Shown here: positions 999 through 55,900 of the stretch, in pieces
How the letters are laid out: every line of letters starts with the position of its first letter
Numbering within the stretch: the stretch's first letter is position 1
Source: Hyalella azteca
Taxonomy: Eukaryota > Arthropoda > Malacostraca > Amphipoda > Hyalellidae
Assembly: GCF_000764305.2 (NCBI RefSeq)
Contig: NW_025934708.1
Location: 20,541 to 84,540, forward strand
Direction of reading: 5' to 3'
Length of the DNA: 64,000 nt
Made by a program: the position numbers and the translations under genes
The notes under the pieces: generated by a model
What the model was told of the DNA's origin: nothing
The model's database searches: none
The model's input: only the letters and a program-made list of their open reading frames with translations

Positions 999-3900
999 AT
1001 GGTTCAACAGGAAGATAATTTTTCAAAAAATAACTATAAAGCAGAGAAAGGAATCATGGGTCAAGCTGTTTGTGGTGCTCCTCCCCTCTCTGATCCCCCC
1101 TCACCAGGCTCACCCATGGCTTCTGTTGAGAGTAACGGCAACAACCCGAGCTCTCCGTGTGAACGCACAGCTGCTGAAGTTCAGGTTATACTTTGTGAAC
1201 TATTAAGCTGTTAGTTCTTGACTCAAACTGCAGGAATACCAAATAGATACAGTAGATGGATTGTTTTACTGTTTTTTTTTCAGCAGAATATCCTTTTCTC
1301 ATATTTTTAACCTGCTTATATGTTTTTTATGGTTCTCTTCAAAATTGTAGATTAGATATTGAGGTTTACATTAGATAATAAATGTTCCTTCTCATCAGAC
1401 TGAAAGCAGTTGGAAAATTTAATTTGCTTATTTACTCATTTACCCTAGTAGATGTCAAAGATTTAAATTTTTTTCTTGAAGGATGGTAAAATAAATGGTC
1501 ATGTATTTTCAGGAAACTCTGTCAAGTTTGTCAGCAGTTGATGGGGTCTCAAAAGAAGACCTGATTGCCAAGCTCCGTACTGTTGTCACTAAGAACCTGG
1601 AGCTAAAAGGTAGGCAACGGCTTTACAATTTCACCCACACACACTCTATTTTTAGTTCAATTTAATATGTTTGTAGAATTATAATAATTTGCTGCAAAAA
1701 TAATTGTTAGTATTGTTTGACATTAACTAAACAGTTTAATAAAGTTCTCATTTTACACCAAAGGATGGCCATGAGGGAAAATGAACCATGATTTTCCATC
1801 CTTCATACCTTATCTTTTCTTTTATTGTGTCAAAAATATTCTCTCACCCTTCAAATGTACACAAGCCTACAAGTTGAAATCATGATAGTCATGGTATGCA
1901 AATGTGGGATGGATTTAAACACATTTTTTGTTGTATATTAAAACTCCTATTTTTAAACAAGTCAGAAAATGTTTGTTTGATCAGTGGCTAAGAAAATGAC
2001 AGTGGCAGAATTTACTACGTCAATTAAACTTCTTCAATATATATAGTATATATTTATTTTTATGTGGTTCTGATCTCACTTCAGAGTCTCGGACACAATA
2101 ACATCCATTAAATATGAATGATGTAACTGAAGTTTTCCAGGCCTTCAGTTATCTATGGTGCACAATTGTTTTACTCTTAAAACAGAAACTCTGGCGCAAA
2201 ATAATCTTGCCTTACGCCATCAACTTGCATTGGTGGTGCGCTGGAGTCAGCAGTCCCAGCTGCAGAAACAGCAACAGCACCAAAATTTATCCAGGGCTGC
2301 CATGCAGATCTCTGCTCTGCAGCATGAAAATGCTGCTCTGAAGAGTGCAGCCAAGGTAAATGGGGTCAATTTTGAGCTGGATTGCAATGATATTTCTCAA
2401 TGATTTTCTTGTAGTTGGATGAAATTGAATGTTCTTTTCTTGAAATTTAATGTTCTGCTCATGTTGTTGCAGAGAACTTTCATTTCATTGCAGTGTATTT
2501 GTTAATGGATAGTTGTAATTAAAAAATTATTCTTGTTAACTGTTGAAGCTGTTCTAAACATTAACTGCTGATTAGCGTGATGGAGCGGCCAGTGGAGGGG
2601 ATTGCAGTGCAGAGATATTGGCTTTGCAAGCTCGCCTGTCATCCGCTGTGCAGCAAATGCAGCAGCTGCAGCAAGAAAAAGACAAGATGGACGCTCTCAG
2701 AGCTAGACTGGAGGGAGACATCACTCTTCTTAAGGTCTGCTGATAAACTCCATTAAATTTAAATATAATAATTATTTGATCAGTTCCTACATTTCATTAA
2801 GAAAGAAATGAACTAATTTCCTTTTGTGGTAGAAATTTTCAAAGTATCTATTTTCATTTACAATTATTCTACTTTTGTATAATTGAGATTGTAAAAGACC
2901 AAATGTTTTCATTGGGTACTTCAATTTGTCTCGACTTTGAGCTGGCAATTAGTGTTCATACATTTCATTAAGAAAGAAATAAATAAATTCCCTTCTGTGA
3001 TAGAAATTTTCAAAGTATCTATTTTCATATACAATTATTCTACTTTTGTATAATTGAGATTGTAAAAGACCAAATATTTTCATTGGGTTCTTGAATTTGT
3101 CTCGACTTTGAGCTGGCAATTAGTGTTCATACATTTCATTAGGAAAGAAATAAACAAATTCTCTTCTGTGGTAGAAATTTTCAAAGTATCTATTTTCATT
3201 TACAATTATTCTACTTTTGAATAATTGAGATTGTAAAAGACCAAATATTTTCATTGGGTACTTCAATTTGTCTCAACTTTGAGCTTGCAATTAGTGTATT
3301 GCAGCATTTCCTTGAGCAGTGTGATATAAGCACCCTCCGACGTGACCACGAGCGTTCTGAGATGGAGCGCTCACACTTGCAAGCCATCAACTCTAAGCTC
3401 AAGCAGCAGCTGCGCCTGCACCACATGTCGCTGCAAGACCAGCAGCACGGTGAGCGTCACAGTTTCTACTGAAATACAGCTGCTTCATACGTAGTAGTTT
3501 GTATTGTCTGGGAATATCGATGTGTTTCAAACGTTTCAGTACCGTATGTACTGCCAATACCACCAAAGAGAGCTGTATTGATCTTAGAAAAAATTCTGCT
3601 GAGAAAATTCTTTTATCCTTGAACAAACATTATTATGATAAACTTTTTATTTATTACTAGTTGTAAATTAATAATTAAATCTTCCTTCGTTGACTTGCAT
3701 TATCCAGCAGCTGGTGGCGAAGGTGACGAAGCCTCTAGTGAGTTGAACTCGACACTACAGAGAGAGGCGGAGGCAGCACGGGTGCAGGTTGAGGCTCTAC
3801 AGTGCGACCTGCAGCGAGCGCGCCACAAAATAGCTTTGCTCGAGAGCGCCGCCGGTGCTTCCAAAATGGTGTGTACAACTGATTCAGGCTGCACGAATGT

Positions 3901-6900
3901 TAATTCAATGGGAAGAGATATTGCTACTCTTCCTTCTAATGATACTTCTTATTTTATGAAAATTTCAAAACAAATTTGTATCTCTTGCATGTTTCTCCTA
4001 TCTGCGTTTTCTTTTATGTGTTTTTTTATTAAAAGGTTGAACTTGCTAGTACTTCTACTGTTTATGGTTTATCGGATCCAAGTAAGGTTGAAAACATTGA
4101 ATGATAAAATGATTTTTTTACGTTTGTGATTTTTCATTGTGCACTAAGATTAGTGTTATTGTTGTCTGATTCTTAGATTTTTTACTACATTTGAAGTGTT
4201 GAGTTTACTGCGAATAATGAGAGTAGACAGCAATAATATCAATGGACTCCAAAATATAAAAATATTAAATTTCAGGATATGGGGATCCCTCTGGATCAGG
4301 TGAAGCTGCAGGAAGAAGCTTCTCTGCTGAAAGAAGACGTGAGTTATGACTGGAAGTGTCTTGTGTTTTGAGTATAATATATGAACGAATTGTTTCAATT
4401 TTGCGTCGTACCGTAACTTTTTCTAATGAGATATTCTTTACTTTTGAGTTTGACTTGTATGGTTGCTGATAACATAAATGAAACGAGAGCCATACTTAGA
4501 GCCAAGATGGTCTAGAGATGCATCTTATACCAATATGCAAGAAAAATTACACTATCTTTACTAGACCCAGTACAGGAGCATACAGAGTATCCCCCACCAT
4601 CAGCCTCTAGGCAGAGAGCGGAAAACCTCCACTGGATCTCCGCCGTGCGCAGCTCACTCTCTAGATGAATGTCCGCCTCGAACAACTACCATTATCTCCA
4701 ATATGGCTCACTGTTATGACCGAAAACCAAGCAAACCCATTTACTTACATTACATAATCTGAAGACTGCGGAACACTCTTTACAGCAGCACAGGTCCAAA
4801 CGATGCTTGCTTGTTACTTTTGAGGAAACTCCGAAGTTATGAATCCCCATCAGCACCTTCCCGCTAAAGTGCGCATTACAGGCAACCACCTGAAAAGCCT
4901 TTTCTTGAACCACGCAACTACAAAGCATGCAAACTCGACGCCATAAATACACTGACGGCACAAAATCGGATGGCGCGATGGGGTGTGCGGCTGCGACCGT
5001 CACAACAACATCGAGACGAGTCTCAACGCATCAATTTACACCGAGGATCTATCTGGTATCCTTTGTGCCCTGGTCCTTATATATTAAAATCCCGGACAAG
5101 AATTCAAGATATTTGTTGACTCCGAAAGTGTAGTGCAAGCCCTGAGAATATACAAAGGCAAGTATCCCATCATCGGGGTAAACATGGCTGGACATATGGG
5201 GGTGCGGAGCAGCGACAGCGCGGATGAGGCGGCGGTGTGCGCTGCTTCGTCAGACATGACTATTTATTTTAAGGACGTCCCATGCCACGACCACTATCCC
5301 CACATCAGGGTGTTCTCCATATGTGGCGCGAGCTGTGGCTGAACATGAGAAACAATAAACTGAGAACAATCAAGGACAGCATAGAGGAACAATAAACTGA
5401 GAACAATCAAGGACAGCATAGAGAAACAATAAACTGAGAACAATCAAGGACAGCATAGAGAAACAATAAACTGAAAACAATCGCAGACAGCATATCAGCA
5501 TGGAGCTCGTTGGACCAGAGATCTTGACGGATGAAGGTAGCGCACTCTTAACTGAGGATCGGTCATATGCGCCTCACCCACAGCTAATTGATTGAGCGCC
5601 GCCCTATACCATATTATGACTGCGATGTCTGCCTGCTACTCCAGACAATACTGCGTCTTAGCAGTGTCCTAGCCACAGCGACATCCGACGAACTGTTACT
5701 CCAACACATCAGCCCTTCACCGCCAAGTCGTTCCTCAGAATGTTAAGGGCGGACCAGCGCAGCAACTTCGGAACCGACAACCTTGGACGATATTTGATAG
5801 AATGCAACCTACTTCCAGAGATCTAGCATGATCCCATGATAGCACCGCCTTGCGGCCATTTGCCGGGAAACTAATTGCTCCTAGCCCATCTCCCTGATCA
5901 AGCCCCACTTGCTCGACAATGGAGTTTTTATATGAAGCCGAAGCAGACTCTCGCTCCATGAACAGAGAATCTACCGCCCAACCCCTGCACCTAAAGGGAT
6001 AAGGCTGCAAGCCTTTAAGACGGAAGAAATCAAATACTACTGACGTAACTGAAGATGGTACTTCCGGCGCGAGTTAGATAGCTATCTGAAGCGCTAGCAA
6101 ACCTTCCACTACTACTGGTACTACATCAAACGAGCATCAAACATGCTTCTTGTCACAAGACAACGAATGCTATGCATTTAATATATTATCAGACCATAAT
6201 AGTTTTATTCAAACCTTCATCATCAAAATGAATGTCATTTTGAGTTTTGTTGTACCATTTTTGAACTAATAGGATGTTATTTTTAACGAATTGTAAAGGT
6301 TGAGGTGCTGGAGAAGACGCTGGCTGCAGAGCGCATCAAGTTGGCCGAGGAGCGGCAGGAGAGGAGCAAGGCAGCGGCCGAGGTGACTGCGCTGCGCACG
6401 GAGCTACAGGAAGCGAGGGACGTAATCCACCGCAACTCCAACACTGACCAGTACTACCAGGCCAAGGTGCGGCAAGCATCCTACATGTTATTACTTTTAT
6501 TTCTGCTATTCACGTTATTAAATACAATTATAATCGTTATAAGTTCTACTTAGTCATGCGCCTGTCTGTGGTGCTAGTTCAAGGTTTATTTAGCAAACGC
6601 GTGTAGTGAACAATAAAATTGTATTAGATGAGTTGTGGATTAGATTTTGGACGATATCCAAAGAAAATATTATATTTCATTGCTTCTTAGACACAAATGA
6701 TTCACAATAAATTCGAAGACTTGTCTATTAACATTTTGAATGATTGCAAAAGAGGACATCTTGTTCAGTTGACTTAACTCGCGTAATTTTCAGATAAAAA
6801 GCATCAACGAGCAGCACGACGCGGTCACTGCCAAGCTTTTGTCCTACGAGGAACTTCTTTCGGCCAAGAACGATGAGCTGGCCAAGCTGAAGAAAGACTG

Positions 6901-9900
6901 CGGGCAAGCCAAGGCGAAGCTGGCGGAGTTCCAGAGCGAGGGAGAAACTATCTCCATTCTGCGAGCTCAGGTAAGCGCGGGGTGTTGATGCTGCCAGCTC
7001 AGGTAAGCGCGGCGTGTTGATGTTGCCAGCTCAGGTAAGCAAGCTCAGGTAAGCGCGGCGTGTTGATGTTACGAGCTCAGGTAAGCGCGGCGTGTTGATG
7101 TTGCCAGCTCAGGTAAGCGCTGCGTGTTGATGTTGCCAGCTCAGGTAAGCGCGGCGTGCTGATGTTACGAGCTCAGGTAAGCGCGGCGTGTTGATGTTGT
7201 CAGCTCAACTAAGCACGGCTTTCGTGTTTAATACAAGCCAAGTGTTGATGTGTTAATGTTAGTAGATTGCAGACTGAACCTAAGTTGATTGTGACGTAAT
7301 TTAGTCGAGCGAGGATGCGTGCAAGCTTCCCCAAGCATATTTCGTGCTATATACTTCATCTCTGTCGGCTGTTTCTCATGATCGTTTCTTGCCTCCATTG
7401 TTTTTGAAATGGGTTCGATAGTCAGCTTTTCTTTTCTGATATATAAATATCTTAATAACACGAACACATTTAATTTTCATCTCTTGCACCAGAAGTTTGA
7501 TTTTATATTCGAACCGTTCACGGTTTTGACATGAAACGAATCGCTATTTGAGTGTTTGTTCGCCAGTACCTAGTGAGCTTAGAATATAAATTGATAATAG
7601 TGACAGTTCAATGATAAAGTATTGTCTACGTTACCTGGAACGTGAAGCAGGGCAGGTTCATTTCACTAAAAACTTAAAAGCAAAGAAAACTCCACATAAA
7701 TTCATAGTATCTTTAAAGAAAACGTTTACTTTAAATATACTATAAATTTTTGTAGAGTTTTCTTTGCTTTTAAGTTTTTAGTGAATTTGCGATTCAAGCG
7801 AACGAGTGACATTATTACTTTTATAGGTTCATTAACACGTTTTTCTTTACTCAGCTTCGCGTTTGTTTGTTTGTTTGTTGTTAACATTGATAACGAAAAT
7901 TAGCCCACTTCTGATTGCTCTAGAGATCTGAAATTCGGCATGCAGGCTATTTTCGCCTAACAATTTCAGATACAATCATAAAAACTAGCAATTAGAGACC
8001 TAAATTAGCTTAATTGACTAAAGTATATATATACCTATAGTATATATATAGTGTGGCGTGCGGGCGCTGACGTTATAGACGAGCAGGTGCTGACGCTGTG
8101 TATCATCGATACGTACGTCAAGTCATACTTAATCAAGTCTTAATCGTTTTTCTTGTGGACTAAAAAGTAGAAAATAAAATACTTAAAAAAACTTTCTAAA
8201 GAACCACGTTTTTCTTGTGGACTAAAAAGTAGAAAATAAATTATGGCTCGCCCCAAAAAACGTGGGTCGGGCTGTACGTTCACTATCAAATTTTCAAAAT
8301 TCCTGTATTGTGTGCTTTTCGCTTTAATCATAAATCTGCCCGACACACGTTTTTTGGGGGCGAGCCATAATTTATTTTCTACTTTTTAGTCCACAAGAAA
8401 AACGTGGTTTTTTAAAAAGTTTTTTTTAAGTATTTTATTTTAATGTTGGAACAGGTGGAGGTGTACCAGGGCGACTTCCGTGCTGAGCGGGAGGCGCGTG
8501 AAGCGTTGGCGAGCGAGCGCGAGCAGCTGCGCGACGACATCAGGCAGCTGCAGCACCGCAACACGCAGCTGCTGGACGAGCTACAGGCCGCCCAGCACGT
8601 CACTTACTCGGCTAGGTAACATATCGGCAGTAGTACATATCGGCTAGGTGCATACATATTGGCTAGGTAACATATCGGCAGTACGGTAGTACATATCGGC
8701 TAGGTGCATACATATTGGCTAGGTAACATATCGGCTAGGGGCATACATATTGGCTGTAACATGGTTGAGCAATATCCTCATGCAGCTGTAAGGGGAACAC
8801 GCAGCTGCTGGACGAGCCATAGGCCGCCCAGCACGTCACTTACTCGGCTAGGTAACATATTGGCAGTAGTACATATTGGCTGTAACATGGATGGACAATT
8901 TCCTCATGGAGCTGTAAGGGGCTAGGGGCTTGTCCAGGCTTGGAACATGTGAATGAAAAAAATAGTGTATTGCAAGAAGAGACTTATCGTCAATTTTACG
9001 TCTGGAGCGAAATAGCCATGCCGTTATTGGCTTAATCTATACTTTTTGGAGAAGGTACTATGGGAGCAAACACTTTGCAGAAGAAGAGTGTCATTTTCTT
9101 CCGAAAATATTCTGTCTTTGACTTGGCAGCCAAAGCAAAAATAAAGATTTCTTGACAGTTTGAAGCAATATTTTTCATAAGTGAGCGAGACCTCTCTGGA
9201 TATATGGATAGCCGGTAATGGGCGAAGGCCTGATAGTACAACGTTACGTAGCTTTCAGAAAGACGAGGTCTGGTTAACCACTTAAGTAGTGACTTTAAGT
9301 AGTGGTAGTAGTAGTGACTTTACAATTAACATCAGTTTGTCATCGTGATTGTTTTTGGTCTACAGAAAGAGCGGTTCTCGGGCTGGGTCTCAGGAGCCCC
9401 AAGAGTCCCTGACGCCGCCACCGTCGCTGAGCATCACCAGCCGCGGGGGCGACGCTACAGGAGCGCTGTCCCTGGACCAGCTCTCGCACAACCTGGAGAC
9501 TAGGGTGCGGGTGACGTCATAACCTTCTTGTTTATCATAGAATTCATTTACATGAATACTGACACTAATTAGCATTTTGTTCGTTTATTTCTCAGTGAGA
9601 ACGGCTCTCTTGGTTGATCGCGCCATTGTATGGTCACCGCCATTTCGTTGGACGCAGAATAACAAATAACCATACATTAATATTTTTTAGACGCCAGTAT
9701 TTATTGTAGTTCGAAGTACATTACGAGTTGCACGTTGGAATGAAGTGTCTAAGCACAATCTAGATATGAGGGTTTTGCTACCTACTTCGCTTTGAGACCC
9801 TTATAAATGTAACGTAACTCTGTTGTACTAACTCGGGTACAATCACGTGAACCAACCTTCGTTTCGAAAAATAACGGCGTGGCGATTATTTCACGAAATG

Positions 9901-11688: not shown

Positions 11689-12149
11689 AACCAACGCGAC
11701 TCTAGCAGCCTGCCCAGTGTCGGAAGAAAGACGGCGCCAGCTTGGAATAACCGCTTCGTGTGTGCAATTTTAGCTAATATCGGTTATTTTGGCAACAAAG
11801 TAAAGAATGCTTGTGAAATTCAACGGGGGCTTTTCCTACTACAGTAGGGTGGATAAAAATTTCCTTTCACAAGTTTAAATACGGTTCGTCTATCACTAAA
11901 CCCACGTCGTAATTATGTTAAAGTCGAAATGTGGTACACGCATATTTCTTCATGACTATGTCAATTTAGATTCAGGCTCGTGTGTGAAATCAACACTGAT
12001 AAATGTATTGAAGAATCGTACCATCATAACAAACTAGTCATAAATTAGTTACGATTAATTAAGTTTCAAAATACTAATAGTACGTAGTGTGCAAGTCCTT
12101 ACTATAAGTTCAATAGGAAAGTTGTTTCTATGCATGGCGGAAAAACGTA

Positions 12150-12155
12150 AATAAA
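12150..12155 (+). terminator. Candidate poly-A signal of the adaptor gene
   Basis: AATAAA lies 462 bases after the stop codon of the optineurin-like gene and before the convergent ATP synthase e gene. It is the first canonical hexamer I noticed downstream. Confidence 0.6.
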
Positions 12156-20757: not shown

Positions 20758-23700
20758 TCACCGCTTGCCAGGGAAACCGCGCTGTGCAGGAAAGATCACG
20801 TTATTGGTCAGTGGGTTGACCCTATGGGTGACTGCAGGCACGGCCAGGTTGTGGAAGTTGTTGTTGGAGTGACGGAAGATGTTGTTGCGATGCGCCCTGA
20901 ATGATGCTGCGAGGTCACACCTTACCAGGACAACGCCTGAGGGGTTCACGTCCACCTTGAAGCGCTTCGACGGCTCCACAACTCCGTAATTTACGCCGTC
21001 AAAAAGGTCGGTGATGGTATAGCCATTGGGGTAAGTCAGACCAAGCTCTGCTAGCGTCACAGAAACCTGGAAGAAAGTAAGATGTTGGGTAAATATTTGA
21101 GGTCACGTAATTCATCTTTATCAGGCCATGCCTTAACATTCGGAATGGGCATCGCAATGTAATGCGCATATTAAAATACCTATGTATGGTAAATGGAGCC
21201 AATAAGTTGATGGCATGACAGGCTTGCAACTGCAGCGCGCAAATCTTTGAAGCACATTGTGAGAGAAGTTGTCCAAAGGATTTACGAGATGCTTCAATCC
21301 TCACCATACCATTAAATTTTTCACATAAACCAGCGTGGATCGACAGCTTAAGGTTAAACATAAGTAGTAGTAGTAGTAGGGAGAGGTTTCTAGCGCTTCA
21401 GATGAGTGTCGTCTATTTCGCGCCGAAGGTCCAATATTCGTTTTGCAGGGTCAGGCTTCTTCGTTGGTTTCAGGCTCGTAGCCTGATCCATCTGGTCTAG
21501 GGTGTATGCTTCTTTATTTCCAAGGCGCAGGTTCTATCCGTCTTCTGCTATTTCATCTCAACCAGTAATATGATGACANTCCAATTTGACGTAGTCAACT
21601 TGCCAGTCAGCAAAGGTCTGAGCATCAACCTGCAGGTGTCCCAATATGCCAGGGTAGCCCGCGCACGTGTAGTTGCCGTAGTCTTCGTAGATACCAAATG
21701 TCAGACCGCGACTGTGCATCTGAAACAGCAAACATTCATTCTATACCCTAGTCAAATTTTCTGATGTATCACTTCGAATGTCAAGCCAGCAAAATGCCTA
21801 TATAAAAAAGAAATGCTTAATTGACGTTAGACATATTTCGAATCAAAACTCTCCCAACTCCTATAATGGTCTAATTGTAAAGTAAATTTAAAGATTTTTT
21901 AAATCCATAAGTGATTGGATCCAAGGATTATAATTAGTGTCAATCCAGATCAAGAGTGAGCTTTTTCAACATCCCATAGAAGACTCACATAATCAGCCAA
22001 AGCAGGAATACCGGAAGGGAAGCGTGTAAAGTCAGGCTGTAGTCTGCCTTGAGCATCTCTGTCACGAGCCAGCCAGCAGTCATCCAGGGACACCATGCTG
22101 TAGCCTGCCTGTAGGTAGCCTTCTGACACTATGATGTCCGCCATCTGCATGAACAGCGTCTCACTGCAACCAATATAAAAAACAGTAATCATGCGCATTT
22201 ATAAAGGGAATCATTTATGCAAGATCCTCTTTGAAATTAATGCCCTTTGAACAATATGTATCTGTTCCTAAGTGATATCTACCTAAAAATAAGAGGGTTG
22301 TGCCAACAATTCATGAGCCCATAACATATGGTTTCCATTTATAATTAGTGACCTAATTAGTACAAGCTTCCATTCACAATTGCTGATCTACTAACAACAG
22401 GTCTCTGTTCATGCCTAGTAACAATAATGAAATCTTGGCAACAATAATATTAGTTTAGTCTGATGCAAGTTTTTCCAACTAAATTTCGTTAATAATGGTA
22501 GCAGAACTGAGGCAAATAAGATGGTGAAGGTATATAAATAAGAAACTAGTTTGATTGATGAGGCATTTTGGATAATTTTCAAAATAATAATTTTTATTTT
22601 GATCATCTGATACAGCAAAACTGAAGGATAAAATTGCCTTTCTAACCCCGCATATAATAATCTTCCTAGAAAGTAAGGTTACTTCTCAAATACTTCAAGA
22701 ATAAAACAGACAACAGCAAATCAAAAAGTGAGTACAGTCAAGTATGTTGCACTGTATTGACTGAAGGAGATTAGGAAAAGAGATCAGAAGTTCTAACAAT
22801 TCAATGCAAAGTGTAAAGAATGGGAAGGTCAAAATAACTCAGTCATTTGCCTGCTGCAATTTTGAGTGGGATTGGTGTCGTGTTCCTTATTTTGTATTGC
22901 ATAACCAACCAATAAGAAATTATATTAAGAAATATTAAATACATACCTACTGTCATTATGAATCAGCTGTAATTTTGCTGATTTTTAAGGTTGAATCATT
23001 CTGACAGTCACACTATCAATTCAATTGATGATAACAAAGAATAAGAAGTGTACTTAAGAATTGACAATCTGGAGTAATTTTGATAGTTCAGAATTGATTT
23101 AATCGGTGATAAGTGTCAAATAAGTGTACTGAACTATTATTAGCATTAGATGATGGAATTTTCTTGTTGAAACACAAATGATTAATGACCAGATAATGCA
23201 TTATATTCCAATTTTAAACTTTTAATCTTCAGCAAGTCAAAAAATTCTACAGATGACATTAATAGATCAAATGGCAGGTCGCAGCAAGTACTTATAATAT
23301 ATTTAACTATGTTTCGAATGTATCAACATTTATTTTCAAATAACAAGACCCATTGAACAATGAAATTTTGGTGGATATAAGTACATAATAGGGGTAAATA
23401 GGATACAACAAGGAAATTTTCAAATGGATAATGCCTCTGAAAACTATCTCACAGTTCAGACAAAGCAAACTATTACGCATTACAAACTTTTTATTATTGA
23501 CATGATGCTATCTATTACTTGGATCATTTTGGCAGTCATAATTGTCAGTTAAGTTAGTTTTACCAATGGATCTTACATATAAGCATCATGAAATGTGTAT
23601 AATTTACCTGATGCAGTTATTTGGATCATTCTGCCAGTCATAATTGTCAGTTAAGTTAGTTTTACCAATGGAACCTAACTATAAGCATCAAGAAATTTGT

Positions 23701-23873
23701 ATAATTTACCTGATGCAGTTATTTGGATCATTCTGACAGTCTGTGTTGCATCTGAACCTCTGCCAGGCCAGCCACCCCATTGGGGGCGTTCTGGCCAGGC
23801 CATTTTCTAGAGCACTCACACCCAGGACTATGAGCACCAGGAGTGCTAAACTACTTCTGCCACATCCATCCAT
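20758..23873 (-). CDS. Secreted GH27 alpha-galactosidase / alpha-N-acetylgalactosaminidase, middle missing
   Basis: Minus-strand exons: 23710-23873 (MDGCGRSS plus a hydrophobic signal peptide, then [19 protein letters not shown]), 21989-22163 ([14 protein letters not shown] ... VSLDDCWL ... [11 protein letters not shown]), 21580-21719 ([20 protein letters not shown] ... WQVDYVKLD) and a last exon 20758-21066 ([20 protein letters not shown] ... [11 protein letters not shown], stop TGA). Family role: lysosomal or secreted removal of terminal alpha-galactosyl residues from glycans. VDYVKLD carries the catalytic nucleophile Asp, about residue 160. After it, sequence expected to encode the catalytic acid/base Asp and the rest of the (beta/alpha)8 barrel is absent; only the C-terminal beta domain returns. 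The substrate-choosing loop is in the missing part, so galactosidase versus N-acetylgalactosaminidase cannot be settled. An acceptor just before the ATG suggests a 5' UTR exon upstream. Confidence 0.9.
21579..21579. other. Single N at the homology break of the GH27 gene
   Basis: The GH27 reading frame runs GTC AAA TTG GAN on the minus strand, with N as the third base of the nucleophile codon. The following bases do not encode the usual Gly-Cys. This is the only ambiguous base I noticed, and it probably marks an unsized assembly join. Confidence 0.8.
23325..23465 (+). repeat. Dispersed repeat, copy 1 (copy 2 at 32836-32985)
   Basis: GAAATTTTGGTGGATATAAG near 23361 and the flanking 140 bases recur, diverged, at 32836-32985 (GAAATTTTGGTGGAAATAAG). 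Both copies end with AACTATCTCACAGTTCAG-like sequence. No coding sequence is seen. Copy 1 lies in GH27 intron 1. Confidence 0.7.
23519..23740 (-). repeat. 102-bp tandem repeat made from the GH27 exon 1 donor region
   Basis: GGATCATT occurs at 23521, 23623 and 23725, and AATTTACCTGATGCAG at 23601 and 23703, a period of 102. The rightmost copy is the real 3' end of exon 1 plus its donor (gt at 23708-23709). The next copy repeats about 40 exon bases and the donor inside the intron. The third is partial. Confidence 0.9.
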
Positions 23874-33168: not shown

Positions 33169-33204
33169 CTAACTAATGAGACAGAGGCTCGGTGTCCTTG
33201 TTGT

Positions 33205-33745: not shown

Positions 33746-36636
33746 AAGCATTACAATCAAGCAACTTTATCTCACGATCCACAATGAATTCAATAATCAT
33801 ATATATATCTCTGATTCTTCTCAAGTTGGACTACTACGCATCAGTATTTTGTTCATTGAGAGTAATTTTAATCCATAACTGATTCTGAAGCTTCATTTCT
33901 GCAGTTTATAGGCGTCAGTATTTAGCTTTTCTCGAGCACTGTTATAACGCATTATCTATTATTCTTCTTAGATTTAAGTAATGAGCGTCCGTATTTAGGT
34001 AATTATGAGTACAGGTATACCGTGCCTGTTGTTTATCTTGCAGTTCTTTAACATCAGTATTATATTGCAGTTGCAAGACTGTGTTATGTTCGCGGCTTAG
34101 GAAGCAGGTCGAGGACAAGGACATACCATGCAGGCATTCCTGCGAACACGCCGACTATCCTGACTTCCCGGGATGAAGGATGTGTGGCATTTTCAAAGAA
34201 TGACAGATGATGATTATTATTTATGTTACCCGCTTCCGTTTATTTTTTTATCGTTACTAGAGTTACGGATTTTTTCAGTGGAAATTATCAGTGAATAATT
34301 CAGCTTGTTTATTGAACTGAGAATTAAATTAGACGGGCACGACTTCATTTAAATTTTAACAGCTCATGAAGCCGGCGATTCAGCGCATTTAACAGTCATC
34401 AGAATATAATAAGATATATAAATCAAAATTGAAAATTTGTTAATTTTCATTCTAGACACTCAATACAATTTCAATATAAACGTCTGTACTTCTCTTTCGG
34501 GCAGCTCCTTAGCTTGCGAAGTCCTTACCATGCAAGATTACGAGTACACCAGCGTTTACACTATCAAGATTATTGGTGACCCACACTCACCTTGAGTTCC
34601 TTCACTTAATCGGTCAGAGAGATTTCAGCCAAAGAGAGAGGAGAGGATGTTCAACGCTATCAATAAAATTCAAATTGATACAGATTCAAGAACGAACAGA
34701 TGACAGTAGTTTTCAACAGTACAGTCGCTCTAGCCCTGCAGCCTCGCAATGTATCACACGACGGGAGCAGTCAGGCAATAAGTACCTACCTAGCTAGCCG
34801 CGCTGCTGCTCAAGAGCACGCCACTTGCTGATAGTCGCTGGTTCCCAGCGCGTCAACGCAAGTTGGCGAGGAAAAAAGATTTCGTCCAAAGTTTAATGGG
34901 GGGGGGTATGTGCTCCCTAGCGATACACAACAACCGATAAAAAGATAGTCAGTCTTATTTTCCTGTTTGTGTTTAGATAAAACGATACTTATGAATATAG
35001 ATGGGAGTGACTTACCTAATCAAACCTAATTTTTAGCCCACTGGAGAACTTATTGCTGATTTATATAGAACTGAAAAACGAGAAACATGCTTTTATCACT
35101 CATTTACGATATCTGGTCGTTTTTCAAAACTTCCTACAAGAAGAAAACGATGAGAAATTTTGAACGTTCAAGCAAAAAATTAAAAGCTTGAATGAGCCGA
35201 ACTAATAATAAAGTTCACAATATTAAGGATACGCGGACATTTCTAGCTGAACGCCGGCGTCTTAAAGGAGCAGGGATGCATGCAGGGTGCTGCTGGCTCC
35301 AGAGGAGGTCCAGGGTTCTGGAACGGATGCTGCCAAGGACTCGGCGAGCGAACGCACGTCGAGAAGTTGCGTTCATCCAAAAGGGAAGCCTGCGTGATAC
35401 TCTTATATACATATCGATGTAAAGTGTATCCTATTTACTTGTATCATGTACTTATTTCCATCAAAATTTCTGTATTCAATGCTTCCTGTAACTTGAAAAT
35501 GAATGTTGTTACATTCGAAACGTCGTTAATAAAGTGATATTACTCCCTTGAACCTGCAATTTGATCAACTAATGTCATCTGAAGAATATTGTTTGGCCCT
35601 GAAAATTTAAATTGAAGAATTCTCTGGCCATTAACCACACGTGTTGAAACAAGCTGATTCTGCCTTCTGATACTAACTTATATACATATACAGACCAGTC
35701 AACAGTCACGTACCAGCGACCAGCACTTCATTAAATAAGTCCAGGCTAGCGGTTGTATTGTTAGATAAGCATTCGCAATTTAAATATTTATGCAACAGTT
35801 TTGGCGATGTAGATTCTAGAACAACAATGATATATTATAGACACAGTGGTTGTTCAAGTAAAATCGCAATCAATTGGAGATGAATTTTTTATGGAATATT
35901 AGCACAGTAAATTTATGACAAAGTCTAAACCCTGAATACATCATCGTAGCGAGGACAATGGAGTTAAAATAAAATTTTATTTTAGATCCACCTGTGAGAT
36001 TTTCTGGCACTACAGGTATCGCAGATACATGCTCGAGTAGTCCTCATATATTTCCATTGACAGGCTTCAAACAAACAACGCAAAAACGCACAACCTCCCT
36101 CTGAAATGCAAAATAAATACATATTGTGGTTCTACTGACAATAACTCAAGCACTTGCCCGAATTAAATGTGAAATAATTTCGTTTAACAAAGATGGAACA
36201 GAGAAATAATCACACGTGGATGAATTTGGAACCCTGCAGTTTTAACGACAAAAATCAGCATTGTGTTCTGCTTACTTACAAAAAATGGCACAACGCCGCT
36301 ACATAAAGAGCATGCTATTCATACCTTAATATCCCCTCGCTGATAAAAAAAACAGTTGATGACACAAATGAACATCTCGGAGGATGCAGCAAATTATCAG
36401 TAATTATAAAAAATAATTCAAGAAATTACAATTTGGGAGACGCCTGCATTTCTTCTTAAACGGTTTAATGGTACCCCATTTCACTAGCTTAATTGCACAA
36501 ACAATTTCAGGGACAAATAAAAACTATTCTTAGTTTGCCTTCCTACTTTTCAACTGTGATGGGAACAATCAGGCCTTACATAAGCCCCATCCTGCGGTGC
36601 TCTATACTTGAGTTGATCTCATTTTTGCCTCGGCAA
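33746..36636. other. Intergenic, no recognised gene
   Basis: It contains a G8 run near 34901 and a GC-richer patch near 34730-34860 that could be promoter or 5' UTR sequence. Nothing has gene-family support. Confidence 0.35.
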
Positions 36637-36956
36637 CCCCAACGCTGAGCAGCAGCCGGTGCTCAGCCGTATTGACCTGTTTGCCGCGGCAGCCCCAACG
36701 CTAAGCAGCAGCAGGTGCTCAGCCGTATTGACCTGTTTGCCGCCGCAGCCCCAACGCTGAGCAGCAGCAGGTGCTCAGCCGTATTGACCTGCTTGCCGCC
36801 GCAGCCCCAACGTTGAGCAGCAACAGGTGCTCAGCCGTATTGACCTGCTTGCCGCCGCAGCCCCAACGCTGAGCAGCAGCAGGTGCTCAGCCGTCTTGAC
36901 CTGTTTGCCGCGGCAGGCCCGACGCTGAGCAGCAGCAGGTGCTCAGCCGTCTTGAC
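36637..36956 (-). repeat. 56-bp minisatellite, about six copies, abutting a possible splice donor
   Basis: CCCCAACGCTGAGCAGCAGC-type units start at 36637, 36693, 36749, 36805 and 36861, with a variant at 36917; period exactly 56. On the minus strand each unit contains ACAG|GTCAA, the same junction as the end of the candidate exon at 36957. Confidence 0.92.
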
Positions 36957-37020
36957 CTGTTTCGTTTGCACGAGGTTGAGGACCGCGTGAGAGACACCCA
37001 TGTGCGCGGCACCGATTGCC
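36957..37020 (-). CDS. Weak exon candidate before the 56-bp array
   Basis: The minus strand reads AIGAAHMGVSHAVLNLVQTK plus Q, ending ACAG|GTCAAG, with a possible acceptor AG at 37021-37022. The composition looks coding and the array pattern matches real exons elsewhere in the window. I do not recognise the family and found no partner exon. Confidence 0.25.
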
Positions 37021-45205: not shown

Positions 45206-45327
45206 GCCGGAGCGCAACAGTGAACAGGCCCTACCGTAACAGGCGGCGCAGGTTAGGTTAGGTTAGTTAAGTTACGTTAGGAGTAGCTGTTGCGGTAGGG
45301 CCCGTTGCGCTCCGGCCTGTATGCGCT
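45206..45327. repeat. Inverted repeat with a TTAGG telomere-type core
   Basis: The left arm CCGGAGCGCAACAGTGAAC then GGCCCTACCGTAACAGG matches, inverted, CTGTTGCGGTAGGGCCCGTT then GCGCTCCGG. In the centre lies AGGTTAGGTTAGGTTAG (45250-45266) followed by decayed GTTACGTTAGG. TTAGG is the ancestral arthropod telomere repeat. Confidence 0.75.
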
Positions 45328-46610
45328 GCGGCCTGTGATTGAACGGCGCTGTTGTGGTGGGCGCTTTGTGTCAAAAGCCGTGAAGATGCCCGGCTGCGTT
45401 ACGCTCGGGAAGGTATATGAATCGCACTGTGGACTTAGGCTATGCTGACCTCTAGCCATCCACCCCGAGGCTCTGCCAAATGAAAGTACGATGAACGTCA
45501 GTTCTTCTTATTGGAAAACTTTTTAGCGATACTCACAAAGTTTAGAAATTGTAAAACTGTTCACCGTTTACTATCATTCAAAATTGTTGAGGTCTCAGGA
45601 GGGGAGGATGCCTGACCAGGCTCGTCGCCTTTCGTTAAGTAGCGCCATCAAAAAAGTGGCCTAGCGCCTCTGTGCCTACATTGAGTTTGCTGGCGACTAA
45701 AGTGCAATGACAAAAATAATTAAGTTATAATGTGTAAATAGTGACAATTTCTGGACGTTGCACCGATACGAACTTTTGCCGTGCTAAACTGGTTCCTGAT
45801 GACTCACACCAGTGCAAAAAGTGCATCGCATTTTGGACGATTAAGACTATTTTTGTTAGGTGAATTCAGTCGTAATGTGAAATAAGCTCTTATTTATAAT
45901 TTATTCTCAATAAATGTTGGAAAACCATACTATAGACTCAAGAAAAGTACATTCATTAATCATCTGCTTTACTTATATCATTATATTATCTTTATTATAT
46001 AATTTGTTTCATACCTCATTGATATCCTATGAATAAGAAATATTAAATTGAAGAATGCGATGTAGTTCTGCCATTTTTTACAGTAATCATACATATCAGT
46101 TTATGTTTGAGTTAGGCGTGTTTAGCCTGTACCAGTTGTGAACTCGAGATTGGGCAGGATACGCCTTCATATTTTAGTGTCTCTGTGGTCGCCGTAATGC
46201 CTGAACCCTCTATCATTCTAAGCTATTATCAGCACATGGACTGTACTCGATTTCTACCGCTTGACATAAATCGATAGTTTAATGATCTTTAATTATCACA
46301 GTGAACTAAAGAGTCTTTTTCTCCCGTATAAAGTATTTTTAGGAAAAAATCTTTATAGTCATAAGGTGAATTTTCATCATGATATTTGTTTCTGAAGCAC
46401 AAGATAATAATACGCACACATAATTTGATGTAATTAAATAGACATTGGTTGTATCAGTTGACGTCGGTGCGTGCGCTGAGAGTGAGTGAACAGAGCGCCT
46501 CCTGGTGGTGTGAGCGGCACAACAGCGAGAGTCGCAGGTGCTGAGGCTCGCGCTCTGCTGCGTATATCGCTGGATCACTCAGCGCTCCATGCCCGGCCTT
46601 GTAGCCAAGA

Positions 46611-46800
46611 ACGGCAACAGCCTGTAACGATAATTGCTAAGTAAGCAACAGTCTACACGAAAATTGGTGAGTAAGCAACTACCTGTCACGGTAATCAATA
46701 AGTAATCACAGACTGTCTCGAAAATTGTTATGTTAACAAAAGCCTGTCACACTTACTAGTAATTTAACAAGAGCCTGTCACTGTAATTTTTACTATTATA
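46611..46800 (+). repeat. Degenerate tandem repeat of about 31 bp, six units
   Basis: Units begin CAACAGCCTGTAACGATAAT, then CAACAGTCTACACGAAAATT, CAACTACCTGTCACGGTAAT and so on, many ending in AAGTAAG. Divergence increases to the right. No adjacent exon was proven, so I cannot say whether it is junction-anchored. Confidence 0.75.
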
Positions 46801-46899
46801 ATTATTCTACGAAGCAATTTTCGTGGCGCCTGGTTCAAACGAATTTCGAGGGCACCTCACGCATAAGATTAATAGCAAGCGAAAAAAATAAATAGACAC

Positions 46900-48670: not shown

Positions 48671-49033
48671 ACTCCTCAAGCATCTCCTGAGGCAATCGCA
48701 CACGAGCAGCTAACCAATAACTTAGTGTTGTATTAGCCAGCCAGCCTGTATGCGCATCTACTTAAGACTGCTCAGGCAATCGTGTTTAACGTGATAGTGT
48801 CGAAATTACTACCTTGTCGATTCCATTAATAATACCTCACCATGTCTAACTTTAAATACGTAAAACTTAAAATTCAACTCTCTTTATTCATCCTTCATGT
48901 CTTAATTAGGACATCATCTAGAACCTATCGGGCCTCGGCAATAAATTAAGAATTCAATTAAACTAATCATTAAATCAACGAGTGTCATAGAAACGACATC
49001 ATTAGCTGTGCTCACGACGAGGTCTGGACAATA

Positions 49034-49178
49034 CACGAACCGCTGTAAAATAATAATTCCTAAATTTAATACTCCTATGAAATAGCAGTATTTACTAAAA
49101 AATTTGCACACGAACCGCTGTAGAATAATAATTTCTAAATTTAATACCCCCATGACATAGCAATGTTCACTAAAAATT
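49034..49178. repeat. 75-bp duplication
   Basis: CACGAACCGCTGTAAAATAA begins at 49034 and CACGAACCGCTGTAGAATAA at 49109. Both are followed by the same AT-rich block ending in ACTAAAAA. Confidence 0.9.
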
Positions 49179-49194
49179 GTGGTACTGTATCAGT

Positions 49195-49575
49195 TTATTC
49201 GGGCTCCAGGTTTGAGGGGGCAAAGCTGCTGTGATGTACTTGTATATAGCACTGCACCTGAGGCGGGATGAGCTGCTGTGATGTACTTGTATATAGCACT
49301 GCACCTGAGGCGGGAGGAGCTGCTGTGATGTACTTGTATATAGCACTGCACCTGAGGCGGGAGGAGCTGCTGTGATGTACTTGTATATAGCACTGCACCT
49401 GAGGCGGGAGATGTACTTGTATATAGCACTGCACCTGAGGCGGGATGAGCTGCTGTGATGTACTTGTATATAGCACTGCACCTGAGGCGGGATGAGCTGC
49501 TGTGATGTACTTGTATATAGCACTGCACCTGAGGCGGGATGAGCTGCTGTGATGTACTTGTATATAGCACTGCAC
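49195..49575 (-). repeat. 47-bp tandem array, about eight units, continuing a splice donor
   Basis: On the minus strand the exon ends TCATCCCGCCTCAG|GTGCAG at 49576. The array then repeats TCATCCCGCCTCAG|GTGCAG plus TGCTATATACAAGTACATCAC with a 47-bp period; one unit is 8 bp short (near 49409). Since 47 is not a multiple of three and the unit has no stop in any phase, all three minus-strand frames stay open across the array, for 155 to 201 codons. Confidence 0.93.
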
Positions 49576-49665
49576 CTGAGGCGGGATGACGTCGGGATGC
49601 TGTGTGGAGAGGTGCGTGAGGACTTGCAATGCACCGTCCACATCGGTGGCGCTCCACTCAAGAAA
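49576..49665 (-). CDS. Exon of 30 codons downstream of the DNase gene, possibly its C-terminal extension
   Basis: The minus strand reads FLEWSATDVDGALQVLTHLS then TQHPDVIPPQ. It follows acceptor ATACAG and ends at CAG|GTGCAG, phase 0 at both ends. The DNase gene's last exon could splice here from a weak donor at 50000 (CTCAA|GTAGCC, also phase 0), which would skip the stop at 49943. In that case the enzyme would carry a longer C-terminal domain. Otherwise this belongs to a separate downstream gene. No family was recognised. It may also read on into the open 47-bp array. Confidence 0.55.
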
Positions 49666-49942
49666 CTGTATATTGTAGAATATTTTAAACATTGAAATGC
49701 AGCATTTATAAAAAAACGCCTTGTCACGAATGACGTTCGGATTCTTGGATAGATGACTTCACAATGTAATCTCATGTATTATAATAAGTTTTTAAAGCAA
49801 TGAAAGTAATTATGCAGTCATTAAGTATTATTCCAACTTAAATGCTGAGTTAATGAAAAAATAATATTTAAATATTAGCGCTCATATTTAGCAAATTATA
49901 TTCACTCAAATGTTAAGTCTAAAAAGCCTATATATTAAATTT

Positions 49943-52900
49943 TTAATGTAAGTCAAAAATACTCGAGCAACTGACAGCGAGGTTGGAAGATATGGCTACT
50001 TGAGGTGATAATTCAGATAATCCATGGACTGGGCAGCCTTCCTGACTTTCGGAAGTCCATCCTTGCATCAAATTGAATACTTTAGACCAGCAAGGCTGGC
50101 TCGGCAGGTCGACGCTGACGCTCACTCGAACTTCGCTAGGAGGCGCGCGTGGTTCGCTCGAGTTGGCGCTTGACGAGCTGTACAAATCCGACACGGAGGC
50201 GGGCACGGAGCCTCGTATCATTACGCCGACCGGGTAGTGGTCGCTGATGTCTTGAATCTGTTTTAAAATTATTATCAGAAGAATGGGTGAGAAATACACA
50301 TTTGCTGACTACACGCTGTTAATTTTCCACTGAGGAGAGTGTGGTATTGTGATGAAAGTGTTCTAATTGTAACATAATGCAAGTCCTATTTTCATTAGAG
50401 GGTGCGGAAGTTCAGTTGTTTCTAGGTCTTAAAGTTTTCAGAGAAAATTGAAAATAGTTTGCAATTTTAAAAAGACACAGAAAAAGTGTGGTGGGTCGAA
50501 TCATGTTCGGGTACTGCCCTGCTGGATCATTCAGCTGAACTTGAAACAATAAAAGCGTGCCGAACAGGAAACTGGTTTCTACTATAATTATGAAAACTGG
50601 TTTGAACAGTTTTTCACTCATTTTATGAAATTCCACTACCACGCGTACCGGCAGCAAAACTTTCTGAACGAAATAATACGAAGATAAATTAGCTGGCATG
50701 TTGGGAATGGAACAAAGGTGGAAAGGTAATCCCTGCATGATTGTTTGTACAAGAACTATTTTCCAGTTTAACTACGGGAATTTCGAAATTTTACTAAGAA
50801 CTACGAGCAAGGTCCCTGAAGGGTTACTAGAATTTGAAACAAGAACCAACACCAGGGGCCACGGCTATAAGCTAAAAAAATTGCGCTGCAACTTCTCCAC
50901 GCGACAAAATTTCTTCTCGCTTCGAATCACCGACATGTGGAACAGCCTCCCCGATATTAGATCTATGAACAAGGCACGAAATGGAAAAGAATCGGCGACA
51001 GGCCACATCAGGCCTACACTTCAGAGCCGACATCACTATGTTATGTTATGTTATTATTTAGAAGGCTGTAGTGTTACTCGCCAAGTCAGAGTTTGATTTG
51101 ATGCCGAGAACTTCATCGAAGTAGTAAGTGGTGGCAGTCTTGTAGTACGCTGCCTTCTGCAGGGTGGAGCCCGCCAGGATGATCCTATGCCAGATATCAG
51201 AGAGAAAATCAAGAGCAAATTCAATGGAACAACGGAAAAAGGTTAAAGCATTGCATTATGTCTTCCCATCCAAGAACAAAATTCAGTCCATCGATTTTAT
51301 CACTCAATGTCCAGACAACAACTGGTATGAAATAATGAGTTTAACATTGACTCTCATCTTCGTGCTTAGCCTCTGTCGTTAAGTTACAACAGAATTCTTG
51401 TTAAATTGTAAACAAGTGTGCGTTGCGTTTGTAATCCGTGTATGTAATTGTAACATGACGTTCAAGGCGTATAATATAGAGCTAGAGAGTATTTTTAATG
51501 TATTTCTCTAATAAACTCAGAGAAATGAGTGGGTAATGGTCCACTTATTTATCCACTCACGCAGTAATTTTTTATCAACAGTTCGAGCAAAGCGCGAGTG
51601 TATTGCAGTTACGCACTTAATGCCTGGCAAAATTGGGTTTTGAAGAACCACTTAAGAACAAGTGGGTGAAAAAGAATTTTTTTATAATGGCTCGTTCATT
51701 TATCGTAGAGTGGAAGCAAATTCAAATCAAATATTTCAAAGATCTATGTAGTCATTAGTTGCAATAAAACGCACCCTACTAAGTTCAAAGTAGTTTGGAC
51801 ATACTCTGCATGTTTCGGATTCCATCATCGTTGTCCTTGCTACCACTGGAAGTCTGGAACTATTCAGTATATGTTCAGAAAGCGTGGAAGATACTTGGCT
51901 AGCGTGGTGCAGTCGGTATATGTTTATACCTACCCTTCGTATGCAAAGGACGTGGTCTTCGTGGTGGTGCCGGTGAAAGTATACCACCAGCCTGTCGCAT
52001 GGGCAAAATGTGTTTTTGTGGTGTGGTTCAGTATACTCGTAAATCTATACCCCACCTGTTGCATGGATAAGACGTGGTCTTCGAGGTGGCGTCCGCGTAA
52101 CTATATACGCACCTGTCATATGGACAAGACGTAGTCTTTGTTGTGGTGTCAGCGTGGTCAGAAATGAGCCAATGGAAGCGTGGGTCTGTGTAGAGTCTCA
52201 TTTGTTCGTACTCCTCTTGTACGATGTAGTTGCAGCCAGCGTTGAAGTCTCCAAGAATTATCGTATCTGTATACAGAAATTTAGACAATGGCCTCACCAT
52301 CACAGCTTGCACAATCGGAGTACTTGAAATCTATTTCCCGATTCAACCTTGGATTACCAGCATACGTTTACCACACTTAATCCAAGACCTCTAAAGATTC
52401 CTCTATTTTTAAATGCACCTTGGTTGCATCAGATTACCCGTAGGCTCAATTGAACTGAGGACAACCAGCGTGGTTTTGACCCTTCCTATAGTTGATCCAT
52501 TCTCTTGATCCTAGAGCCAGGTAATTTCACAAAAAAAAAACTAAGCCTGCGAGCTAAGGAAATAAATTGCGCTTAGCTGCTCATGGTCCAAGCCCGCTTA
52601 CAGTCTTAGCTTCAGAATCAAACTACTTGAATACTACGTTCTGATTCAACCTAGAAAATTCACCTCACTTAGTTCTAGACAACTCTAAGTTTGACTAGAC
52701 GATTACCAGCACAGTTTAGGAGCCTCAAGCCTGTTTACCAATTGAACTTGATACGACCACCATAGTTTGCCTCAAGTAAAGGAAAGAAATTAAGCTGTAA
52801 TATTGAAGCCTTTACCAGCACGGTACACCTAAGAAATTTCTTTCGATTATTGATTAGATTATTCCAAATATCAGAATGGCTAATATATAATCATTTGGCA

Positions 52901-55900
52901 CTCCTTTTCATACAATAAATTTTTTGCCTGAGTATATATCCCTCTCGAATTAGGAATATAACAACTATTTTCGAAATATTCTATCAGAGAGTTTGGTTGA
53001 CGCTCCTCTGTAAATTGTCAATATATTCGACAATCTTAACATTCTGGGAAATATAATTTGGAAATCAATCAACGATTTGATTTCTTATATCCCATCGAAT
53101 ACGCTCTTACACCACTTGTACTCAAGCTGATGGGTTAACTTAATTGCTACGAATGACGGGTTTTTGAAATCAAAATTTATTTCGCTAAATTTTAAAGCAA
53201 CGTTTTTTTTTTTCACTGTTAACGATGTTCTTACTATCAGGCACTTCCACTAAACGAACAAAAGCGAAATAATTTTTTTGTATGCTGCATAGTGATGTCG
53301 GTGCTGAAGAATAGGCCAGATGTGGTCGGTCGCCGATGTTTTTATTATAGTCTCGAACTCGGTAACACATCCAATCATTCGAAAAATTGATAAATTTGTA
53401 TCGTAAATCCATTCACCTATTGTATAACGAAGAGCCCTCGTCGTAAAAACTCATATCAACCATCATCTCATTGTTAACTTATACCCAAGTAGGTAGGGTA
53501 CCAATCATGGATTTTTCTGCCAAAGAACACACAACGAGCACCCGGCAGCAGTGATCAAACCTTCAATTCCTAAGTCAAGAATCATCTGATCGTAGACGTC
53601 CACAAGGGCGTCCATTTCGACGAGAGCGTCGGAGGGCTTGGCATGCAGGGGAATGACGGCAAACTCGCGCAGGGGCCCCGTGCTGTTGCTGGTGAAGTGC
53701 GCGATGAAAGGCTCCACTTGGAACACGTCCGACTGCTCCACGTACTTGTAGCCGTTCACGAACGTCATGCGGCTTGGCATATACACGAACACATATCTGC
53801 ACATAGGGGTTTGACGTAAAAAAACCGAGCAAATATTACATTAGTTTAACTGCTGCTGACGCACTGAAGACCTGATGAAGTGTAGAGATGAAAATTTCAG
53901 CACAATGCTTCGCGATCTTCTATTTTGGCGAGTAAGCGTGCATATAGAGACGTGGACACAGTCGTGGACAAAACTTTTGTCGCAACTGATATTTTTTGTA
54001 TTGTTCAATTATGAGGTCTAAAACACAATCAGGAAACGTCAAATATTTATTTTTCAACTTGAACATAAAAAAATATTAAAATGAACGAAATCCTACACGA
54101 AAAATTCGAAATACGGCAAATTTCCTCAAGGTATCAATATTTGCAGTGCTGACCCCTATTACGAAGAACCTCTTCTATTCTCTTTGATTCAGTTGATTCA
54201 GTACTGAATTGTTATAATTGACTCACTGTTCCTTATAAGAATTTCTTCCTATCCTCGGCGACTCAACAGCCACGTAGAGATTCTCGCTGCCCATGTAAGT
54301 GTTGATAGCCGTGATCAGCGCAGGTACGGCCGTGCCCGTCGTATCCGTCACTTCTTGCAGTACGATCAAATCGTAGTTAGAAATGACCTGGAAAACAGCC
54401 GTAGTCGCAGTTGTGTTCCAGGAAATTCCTAATATATATAAAGGAATGAGTCTGATCGTTCGAATAGTGACACACTTTCGAAAATGAGGAACAATTAATT
54501 TGGCTCCTTATTGTTACAGTGCTCGACTCGGCATGAGTTGAAGTTTTGAGTGGCGGTGAGCCAGCAATCATTTGCACCGTGGTGCAGCAATTTATGATCA
54601 ACACTCAAGAATTTTTCATACCATTCAATTTGGAATAATTTTAATGCCATCCTCGCAGAAATTAAGCGAGTAACCAAGTTTCGGGGCTGCTGGAAAACAT
54701 TTTGGCAGGACCCTGATCTGAACAAAGTATTGACGATCGTGGCCATGGCTAATTTCTTCAAGGAATCTCAATGCTTGAGGTGTCCACTGGCGCGAAAGTT
54801 TACTTATTAAGACTACGTATGTAGATGCGTGTTTCCGGGAGCACTTTTGGATAAATCTAAAGCAAATACTTCGTTTATTTTACTTCTATCTTGCCCTAAC
54901 GCGATAAATACAGTATCCATCCATATAATAGTGGAGTGACCGGGATCAGGAAGTTTACTTGTGAACCACGGCATGCTGTCCAGCCATCTGATGGACGGCT
55001 GATCTCTGTACGTTGCTTGGCTACCTGAATTCACAATTCTTATATCCGTTCACCTGGTCCGTCACGTTGCAGCTGCTGGCTGCTCACCTGGACAGTGACG
55101 TCCATCACGAGCTGGTCCATCACGAGCTGGTCCATCACGTTACAGCTGCTGGCTGCCCACCTGGACAATGATGTCCATCACGAGCTGGTCCGTCACGTTG
55201 CAGCTGCTGGCTGCTCACCTGGACAATGACGTCCATCACGAGCTGGTCCGACACGTTGCAGCTGCTGGCTGCTTACCTGGACAATGACGTCCATCAAGAG
55301 CTGGTCCATCACGAGCTGGTCCATCACGTTGCAGCTACTGGCTGCTCACCTGGACAATGACGTCCCATCAGGAGCTGGTCCATCACGTTGCAGCTGCTGG
55401 CTGCTCACCTGGACAATGACGTCCATCACGAGCTGGTCCGACACGTTGCAGCTGCTGGCTGCTCACCTGGACAATGACGTCCATCACGAGCTGGTCCATC
55501 ACGAGCTGGTCCATCACGTTGCAGCTACTGGCTGCTCACCTGGACAATGACGTCCCATCAGGAGCTGGTCCGTGACGTTGCAGCTGCTGGCTGCTCACCT
55601 GGACAATGACGTCCATCACAAGTTCGTTCTTCATCTTGGCGACGCCGTAGCGCTGTAGGTTCCAGCAGCCGATGCGTACAGGCTCGTCGAGGCAGTGTTG
55701 CCAGCGGAGGGCAGAACAGAAGTCCACCATTAAGGGGTACACGCCACCTGTTTCCTTGAATGCCTTTGCCCTCTGACCAGGTACCTTTTGATGAAAGATA
55801 ATGACTCTCACAGATTTAAAAACCTTAGTTTTTAAGGTAAGGTAATTTTATGTTCTTCAATTTATATTATATTTTGACACAGTATTATCCTGGAATTGGT

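Follow-up and report, generated by a model that had tools for sequence, protein, structure and literature searches.

Minisatellite arrays across exon-intron boundaries (mirages) in the genome of the amphipod crustacean Hyalella azteca

In a 64,000-nucleotide stretch of the Hyalella azteca genome (hereafter the window; NCBI RefSeq assembly GCF_000764305.2, contig NW_025934708.1, positions 20,541 to 84,540 of the forward strand), tandem arrays open at 6 of the 23 modelled splice donors, each with a repeat unit composed of the end of the exon, the donor and the start of the intron. These arrays are "mirages", a known class of boundary-spanning minisatellites described in the Adh, globin, TnC and PGBD5 genes of amphioxus (PMC3087553, PMC3902484; these and all papers below are cited from the excerpts available), and the remark in an earlier note on this DNA that no annotation class was known for the phenomenon does not hold. 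New here are the crustacean lineage and a first density estimate, about one boundary in eight. The arrays are quite probably a by-product of tandem duplication that occurs genome-wide, is purged inside exons and is tolerated at exon ends.

The contig (C1199, 84,540 bp, in the 519-Mb assembly) carries gene models for optineurin (plus strand, 988-11688), ATP synthase e (minus), GH27 (minus) and a DNase I-like protein (minus, 55784-46454); positions are those of the window unless another piece is named. The last exon bases at the array donors are 6970 and 8615 on the plus strand and 23710, 55599, 49576 and 52113 on the minus strand, and the exons and arrays concerned are the following.

6794..6970, plus strand: optineurin exon 9, from the gene model; RAQ/V junction colinear with NEMO, and H. 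azteca protein P0241 100% identical
6959..7219, plus strand: array at the optineurin exon 9 donor, found by Tandem Repeats Finder (TRF); 32-bp unit (about 8 nt of exon and 24 nt of intron)
8455..8615, plus strand: optineurin exon 10, from the gene model and P0241
8608..8890, plus strand: array at the optineurin exon 10 donor, TRF; unit of about 51/56
23710..23876, minus strand: GH27 exon 1, from the gene model; human GLA colinear across the junction
23515..23741, minus strand: array at the GH27 exon 1 donor, TRF; 102-bp unit (about 32 nt of exon and 70 nt of intron)
55599..55784, minus strand: DNase I-like exon (exon 2 of the earlier note), from the gene model and homologue alignment
55054..55619, minus strand: array at DNase donor 55599, TRF; units of 58/59/73 bp (about 21 nt of exon), 9 intact GT donors
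52113..52266, minus strand: DNase I-like exon (exon 5 of the earlier note), from the gene model and homologue alignments
51940..52155, minus strand: array at DNase donor 52113, by eye; degenerate, unit of about 60 bp, about 4 copies
49576..49665, minus strand: DNase I-like exon with the end HPDVIPPQ, from the gene model and homologue alignment
49224..49589, minus strand: array at DNase donor 49576, TRF; 47-bp unit (about 13 nt of exon), 8 copies
46454..46621, minus strand: last DNase I-like exon, from homologue alignment

All six donors had been proposed earlier as places where an array repeats the splice site, and all six are confirmed. TRF detects five of the 23 window donors in arrays; the array at 52113, which it missed, was recognised by eye and by a copied peptide, with the exon peptide ADTTTKTTSCPYDR recurring in a copy as ADATSKTTSYPCNR, and its self-match is weak (19/30, a level attained by 12% of window positions). 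Most array copies retain GT, as do 8 of the 9 donor-like sites of the exon 9 array. In the exon 10 array, with limits set by eye, short copies at 8608-8755 are followed by a longer copy of the exon end and donor at about 8795-8890. Five donor arrays of the window (all but that at 52113), three of a second GH27 gene and one of a gene that we take to be astacin-like were compared; in these nine, the exon contributes 6 to 54 nt to the unit, with limits again judged by eye. The decay away from the exon that had been described is seen in the distal copies of some arrays, and not clearly in those at DNase donors 55599 and 49576.

Despite these duplicated splice sites, the normal exon is predicted to be joined at the level of protein models. 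Splicing at the exon-proximal copy gives proteins colinear with solved homologues (CIS/E in GLA, IVQ/V and YDR/I in DNase, RAQ/V in optineurin), and crustacean homologues support it at the DNase end HPDVIPPQ (continuing VAVLGYKAGHG) and in optineurin. In addition, two H. azteca database proteins, P0121 (from the second GH27 gene, over 419 aa) and P0241 (optineurin, compared over 286 aa), are each 100% identical to the exon-proximal splice model and together match its use at five arrays. Because homologues and database proteins place the splice there, we assign it to the exon-proximal copy. In 8 of the nine donor arrays, a reading frame that runs on into the array would meet a stop after at most 21 codons. 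The ninth, at 49576, stays open, and since all three gene-strand frames of 49224-49589 are open, read-through would there add repeats and not a stop. We considered whether this array might itself be coding (three open frames, with AATAAA after it) and dropped the idea, as homologues continue with VAVLGYKAGHG, which is encoded at 46621-46454; the last DNase exon, AVAVLGYKAGHG, continues there after DNase PPQ, and its position at 46454..46621 makes 49576 the true exon end. In the public annotation, the protein P0001 (HAZT_HAZT004340) contains translated array sequence at two donors (55054-55784 and 51940-52266) and ends early. A further DNase exon, near 51080, has an apparent GC donor (TTG/GCGAGT), as judged from phase and homologues.

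GH27 intron 1 suggests how old one of the introns concerned may be. Exon 1 of the H. azteca gene ends at a serine aligned with Ser65 of human GLA, in identical phase, where the serine was placed on what we take to be a 31-residue offset of the GLA chain numbering. The last base of human GLA exon 1 is c.194, in Ser65 (PMC9737616). As the two introns share residue and phase, the simplest reading is that the GH27 intron is an old one, which predates the split of arthropods and vertebrates and was lengthened by the array and not gained. The claim that the arrays extend existing introns is upheld for GH27 intron 1 by this comparison. The GH27 model itself is broken, with its middle exons absent at a single N (21579) where exon 3 ends abruptly; the subsequent catalytic exons were not found past this position, so the gap there is probably longer than one base.

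Directly upstream of the window lies a second GH27 gene, on the pieces L015 (contig 541-10540) and L014 (10541-20540). It bears three donor arrays, at exon 1, at L015 9663-9771 (34-bp unit) and at L014 746-973 (84-bp unit), and it has duplicated exons, among which the sister of the 34-bp case (exon end at L015 8241) is without an array. The array at L015 2845-3187 is related to the GH27 array of the window and has more copies (2.4 to 3.4 against 2.2 in the window, a comparison between paralogues only). A palindromic sequence occurs at L015 1429-1466 and 4555-4592 and, incomplete, at about L017 172-198; we take it to resemble a transposase adaptor and thus presumably to be a sign of assembly or library artefacts.

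Beyond donors, arrays also meet other boundaries. In L017 (3121-3492), a 92-bp unit in four copies starts within the last 15 nt of an apparent coding exon, as inferred from the open frame, and appears to span the stop codon and continue into the presumed 3' untranslated region. One intron of the astacin-like gene (L016) is bounded by arrays on both sides, one at its donor and one at its acceptor. Taken together, these two cases fit tolerance of an array wherever one functional copy adjoins coding sequence.

Several window arrays lie away from any modelled junction.

2783..3297, plus strand: 171-bp unit in 3 copies, TRF; fills most of optineurin intron 4 and spans no junction
5347..5494, plus strand: 37-bp unit in 4 copies, TRF; within an optineurin intron, off-junction (counter-example)
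36624..36962, no strand assigned: 56-bp unit in 6.1 copies, TRF; candidate site, gene context undecided
49033..49176, no strand assigned: 75-bp unit in 1.9 copies, TRF; in the last DNase intron, off-junction (counter-example)

The array at 44021-44091 is likewise at no modelled junction. TRF arrays cover none of the 27 modelled window acceptors, and the array at 2783-3297, formerly read as containing the acceptor of exon 5 of this adaptor (optineurin), stops 22 bp short of the acceptor implied by P0241 (exon start 3320) and does not include it; an acceptor at 3304 was dropped, since P0241 puts it at 3319/3320. The array at 36624-36962, suggested as a further case on account of position 36957, is real and stands as a candidate. 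Two sequences with similar ends, at about 10440-11400 (inside an optineurin intron) and about 16630-17330, were also noted in the window, and we take them to be mariner/Tc1-like.

To ask whether junctions are special, boundaries need to be counted in genes that were not chosen for the pattern. The genes modelled first are tied to it: the window was chosen for showing it, and the C1300 piece was extended since L016, a random piece, showed an array. To avoid this dependence, kinase exons were sampled by rule: 20 of 138 matches to PF00069 in listed order, ending at or before domain position 212, stop-free and in frames of at most 200 aa, with donors chosen by a donor position weight matrix (PWM; assumed frequencies) and acceptors set where the domain match begins. 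The matches are listed in E-value order, so the sample leans to well-scoring exons. Arrays span 1 of the 20 kinase donors and 4 of the 20 acceptors. These 5 of 40 boundaries (12.5%, 95% interval 4-27%) each belong to a different exon, and all five arrays are visible by eye. One of them is L077, where the acceptor is repeated upstream together with the beginning of the exon that encodes the kinase DFG motif; the acceptor arrays of all samples are L016 7512-7747, L062, L067, L073 and L077. Array makes up 15.3% of the non-exon sequence flanking the kinase exons, which does not differ from the boundary rate (P=0.83), and 2.4% of the exon matches themselves (118 bases, all from the five boundary arrays). 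Among these kinase exons, arrays reach into junctions about as readily as into introns, and exon interiors are not open to them in this way. The junction had been proposed as the target of the process, with absence of enrichment at junctions named beforehand as refuting; the kinase sample, small at 20 exons, gives none, with 12.5% of boundaries against 15.3% array cover in the flanks. The observation is real in its core and partly confirmed, the earlier interpretation is partly supported, and the targeting claim is unsupported by the fairer sample. The four acceptor arrays also led us to drop a donor-bias mechanism in which the first transcribed donor is used and acceptor arrays are not tolerated.

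A search of the whole assembly for the donor octamer CAGGTAAG gave a mixed picture. It occurs barely more often than the reversed octamer (10,501 vs 9,627), and pairs 28-58 bp apart number 406 for CAGGTAAG vs 149 for the reverse; counted by hand as distinct arrays among the matches listed up to contig C1206, they number 28 vs 17, a smaller excess. We inspected 20 of those 28 (those at C135, C289, C455, C507, C546 and C916, the second of two on C1060 and the previously known one on C1199 were left out), seven by eye and 13 by score alone, including L036, which has N upstream and could not be judged. Three are clear exon donors (L021, L022, L027) and one is possible (L026); in L019 an exon is present and the array lies 260 bp off. 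Among 29 arrays outside the two discovery regions, a donor-motif test gave 3 at P<=0.05 and a median P of 0.49, at low power, since the true donor array of L016 received P=0.72; the test used the assumed PWM frequencies. Pfam searches of six candidate exons upstream of arrays returned a single weak match (Maelstrom, E=0.058), and a search of L010 in three forward frames returned no match.

The H. azteca genome is rich in minisatellites, with 44 arrays making up 6.7% of the 165 kb examined. We propose that a chance tandem duplication would occasionally run across the border between an exon and an intron and later grow into a minisatellite, given a high rate of tandem duplication and expansion by slippage or unequal exchange. 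Selection would clear arrays from exons, and arrays within introns would be neutral. An array beginning inside an exon, but no more than a few tens of bases from its end or start, would be tolerated, with the copies becoming intron, because the splicing machinery would use the site adjoining the intact exon; under exon definition, the innermost acceptor-donor pair may win, so that the proximal site is used and the intron lengthens by the length of the array.

Some of our data weigh against this reading, and most of them favor junction-targeted intron growth, in which donors seed tandem duplication, e.g., by transcription-linked slippage. In the genes modelled first, 8 of 35 donors lie in arrays where 1.75 are expected (circular shift P=0.00015), against 1 of 41 acceptors where 2.06 are expected. 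These totals include boundaries from open frames only, i.e., 4 donors and 5 acceptors of the C1300 genes, which we take to be astacin-like and WD40-like, and a receptor-like exon without a Pfam match, and they omit the exon 1 donor of GH27b, which is paralogous to that of the window. Outside the window, the figure for the same genes is 3 of 12 donors (P=0.07). Triples of the octamer number 235 for CAGGTAAG vs 58 for the reverse, or, counted by hand as distinct arrays among the matches listed up to C2319, 26 vs 11, an excess of about twofold. Upstream sequence looks coding (score >=0.35) at 6 of the 20 octamer arrays and at none of 20 single octamers (P=0.01; GC content is a confounder), by a score that 11-15% of non-coding AGGT sites pass and that, depending on threshold, misses 25-42% of 12 donors that are true or modelled. 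The use of the proximal site, moreover, is predicted from protein models and homology. Against targeting stand the kinase boundaries, which are struck at the rate of their flanks, the pooled samples, in which donors (9/55) and acceptors (5/61) do not differ (P=0.25), the three clear exon donors in 20 octamer arrays, and the choice of the window for showing the pattern. We therefore consider targeting rather unlikely, while a modest donor excess is compatible with the octamer data. Also doubtful, in our view, is the combined claim that about one boundary in eight carries duplicated splice sites and that donors in some neighbourhoods are struck several times more often than intron.

The other explanations fare less well than tolerated by-products of tandem duplication. 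There is a small chance that the assembler created or expanded the repeats, since the assembly is a draft, with the single-N break at 21579 and adaptor-like palindromes on the same contig, and copy numbers in it may be wrong; nevertheless, array units differ in single bases and by indels, and the second gene carries the GH27 array with another number of copies. Retention of duplicated donors for alternative splicing or expression would fit the GT left intact in most copies, a feature that young or homogenised arrays would show as well, and is improbable given the early stops that most distal donors would bring. The gain of new introns through tandem AGGT duplication (the Rogers model) is documented elsewhere (PMC4974935, PMC3443670) and units here do hold AG/GT, but GH27 intron 1 is shared with human GLA and the introns' own acceptors are located outside the arrays, which makes this route very unlikely. 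Recurrence at junctions is what a dispersed element (introner or transposon) inserting there would produce, and this we regard as extremely unlikely: the units are mutually unrelated and each begins with its own exon's sequence, and 9 of the 10 window arrays have no match more than 200 bp away in a comparison with the window and 11 further pieces, with the tenth, that of GH27, matching its paralogue only. Similarly, the 27-base core of the exon 9 unit (at most one mismatch; very common words skipped) has 7 matches in the 519-Mb assembly, every one within its own array. The earlier view that the units do not belong to one transposon family is borne out by these comparisons.

The closest known system is that of amphioxus, where mirages in Adh3, the globins BflGb6 and BflGb9, TnC and PGBD5 are, as here, minisatellite-like duplications over exon-intron boundaries at donors or acceptors, with a locus-specific unit length and AG/GT kept in many copies, and where regular splicing is reported to be undisturbed (PMC3087553, PMC3902484). 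H. azteca differs in being a crustacean and not a cephalochordate, and its rate comes from exons chosen by rule (5/40 boundaries), whereas the available amphioxus passages give none. Intron gain by tandem duplication, as in ATP2A1 and the potato RdRp gene, likewise duplicates an AGGT segment (PMC4974935); it makes a new intron, whereas the arrays described here lengthen an existing one. Ordinary intronic minisatellites are the same kind of array, but in H. azteca the units take in the ends of exons together with splice sites. Among the repeats of Trinorchestia, a related amphipod, tandem repeats make up the largest portion, 6.18% (PMC7062882). No report of crustacean mirages was found in the literature searched, which largely excludes subscription papers.

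Such arrays can also spoil gene models: a predictor may read into the repeats, as seen in P0001. If some neighbourhoods were indeed donor-biased, a process favoring junctions would be lengthening introns in H. azteca at present, and the genome would keep a reserve of splice sites ready for alternative use. Overall, our data extend mirages from amphioxus to a crustacean and, with one at an end of 5 of the 20 kinase exons, suggest that they are common rather than a curiosity. In a genome with many natural duplicates of donors and acceptors, it can be studied which of the copies is chosen in splicing and by what means introns become longer.

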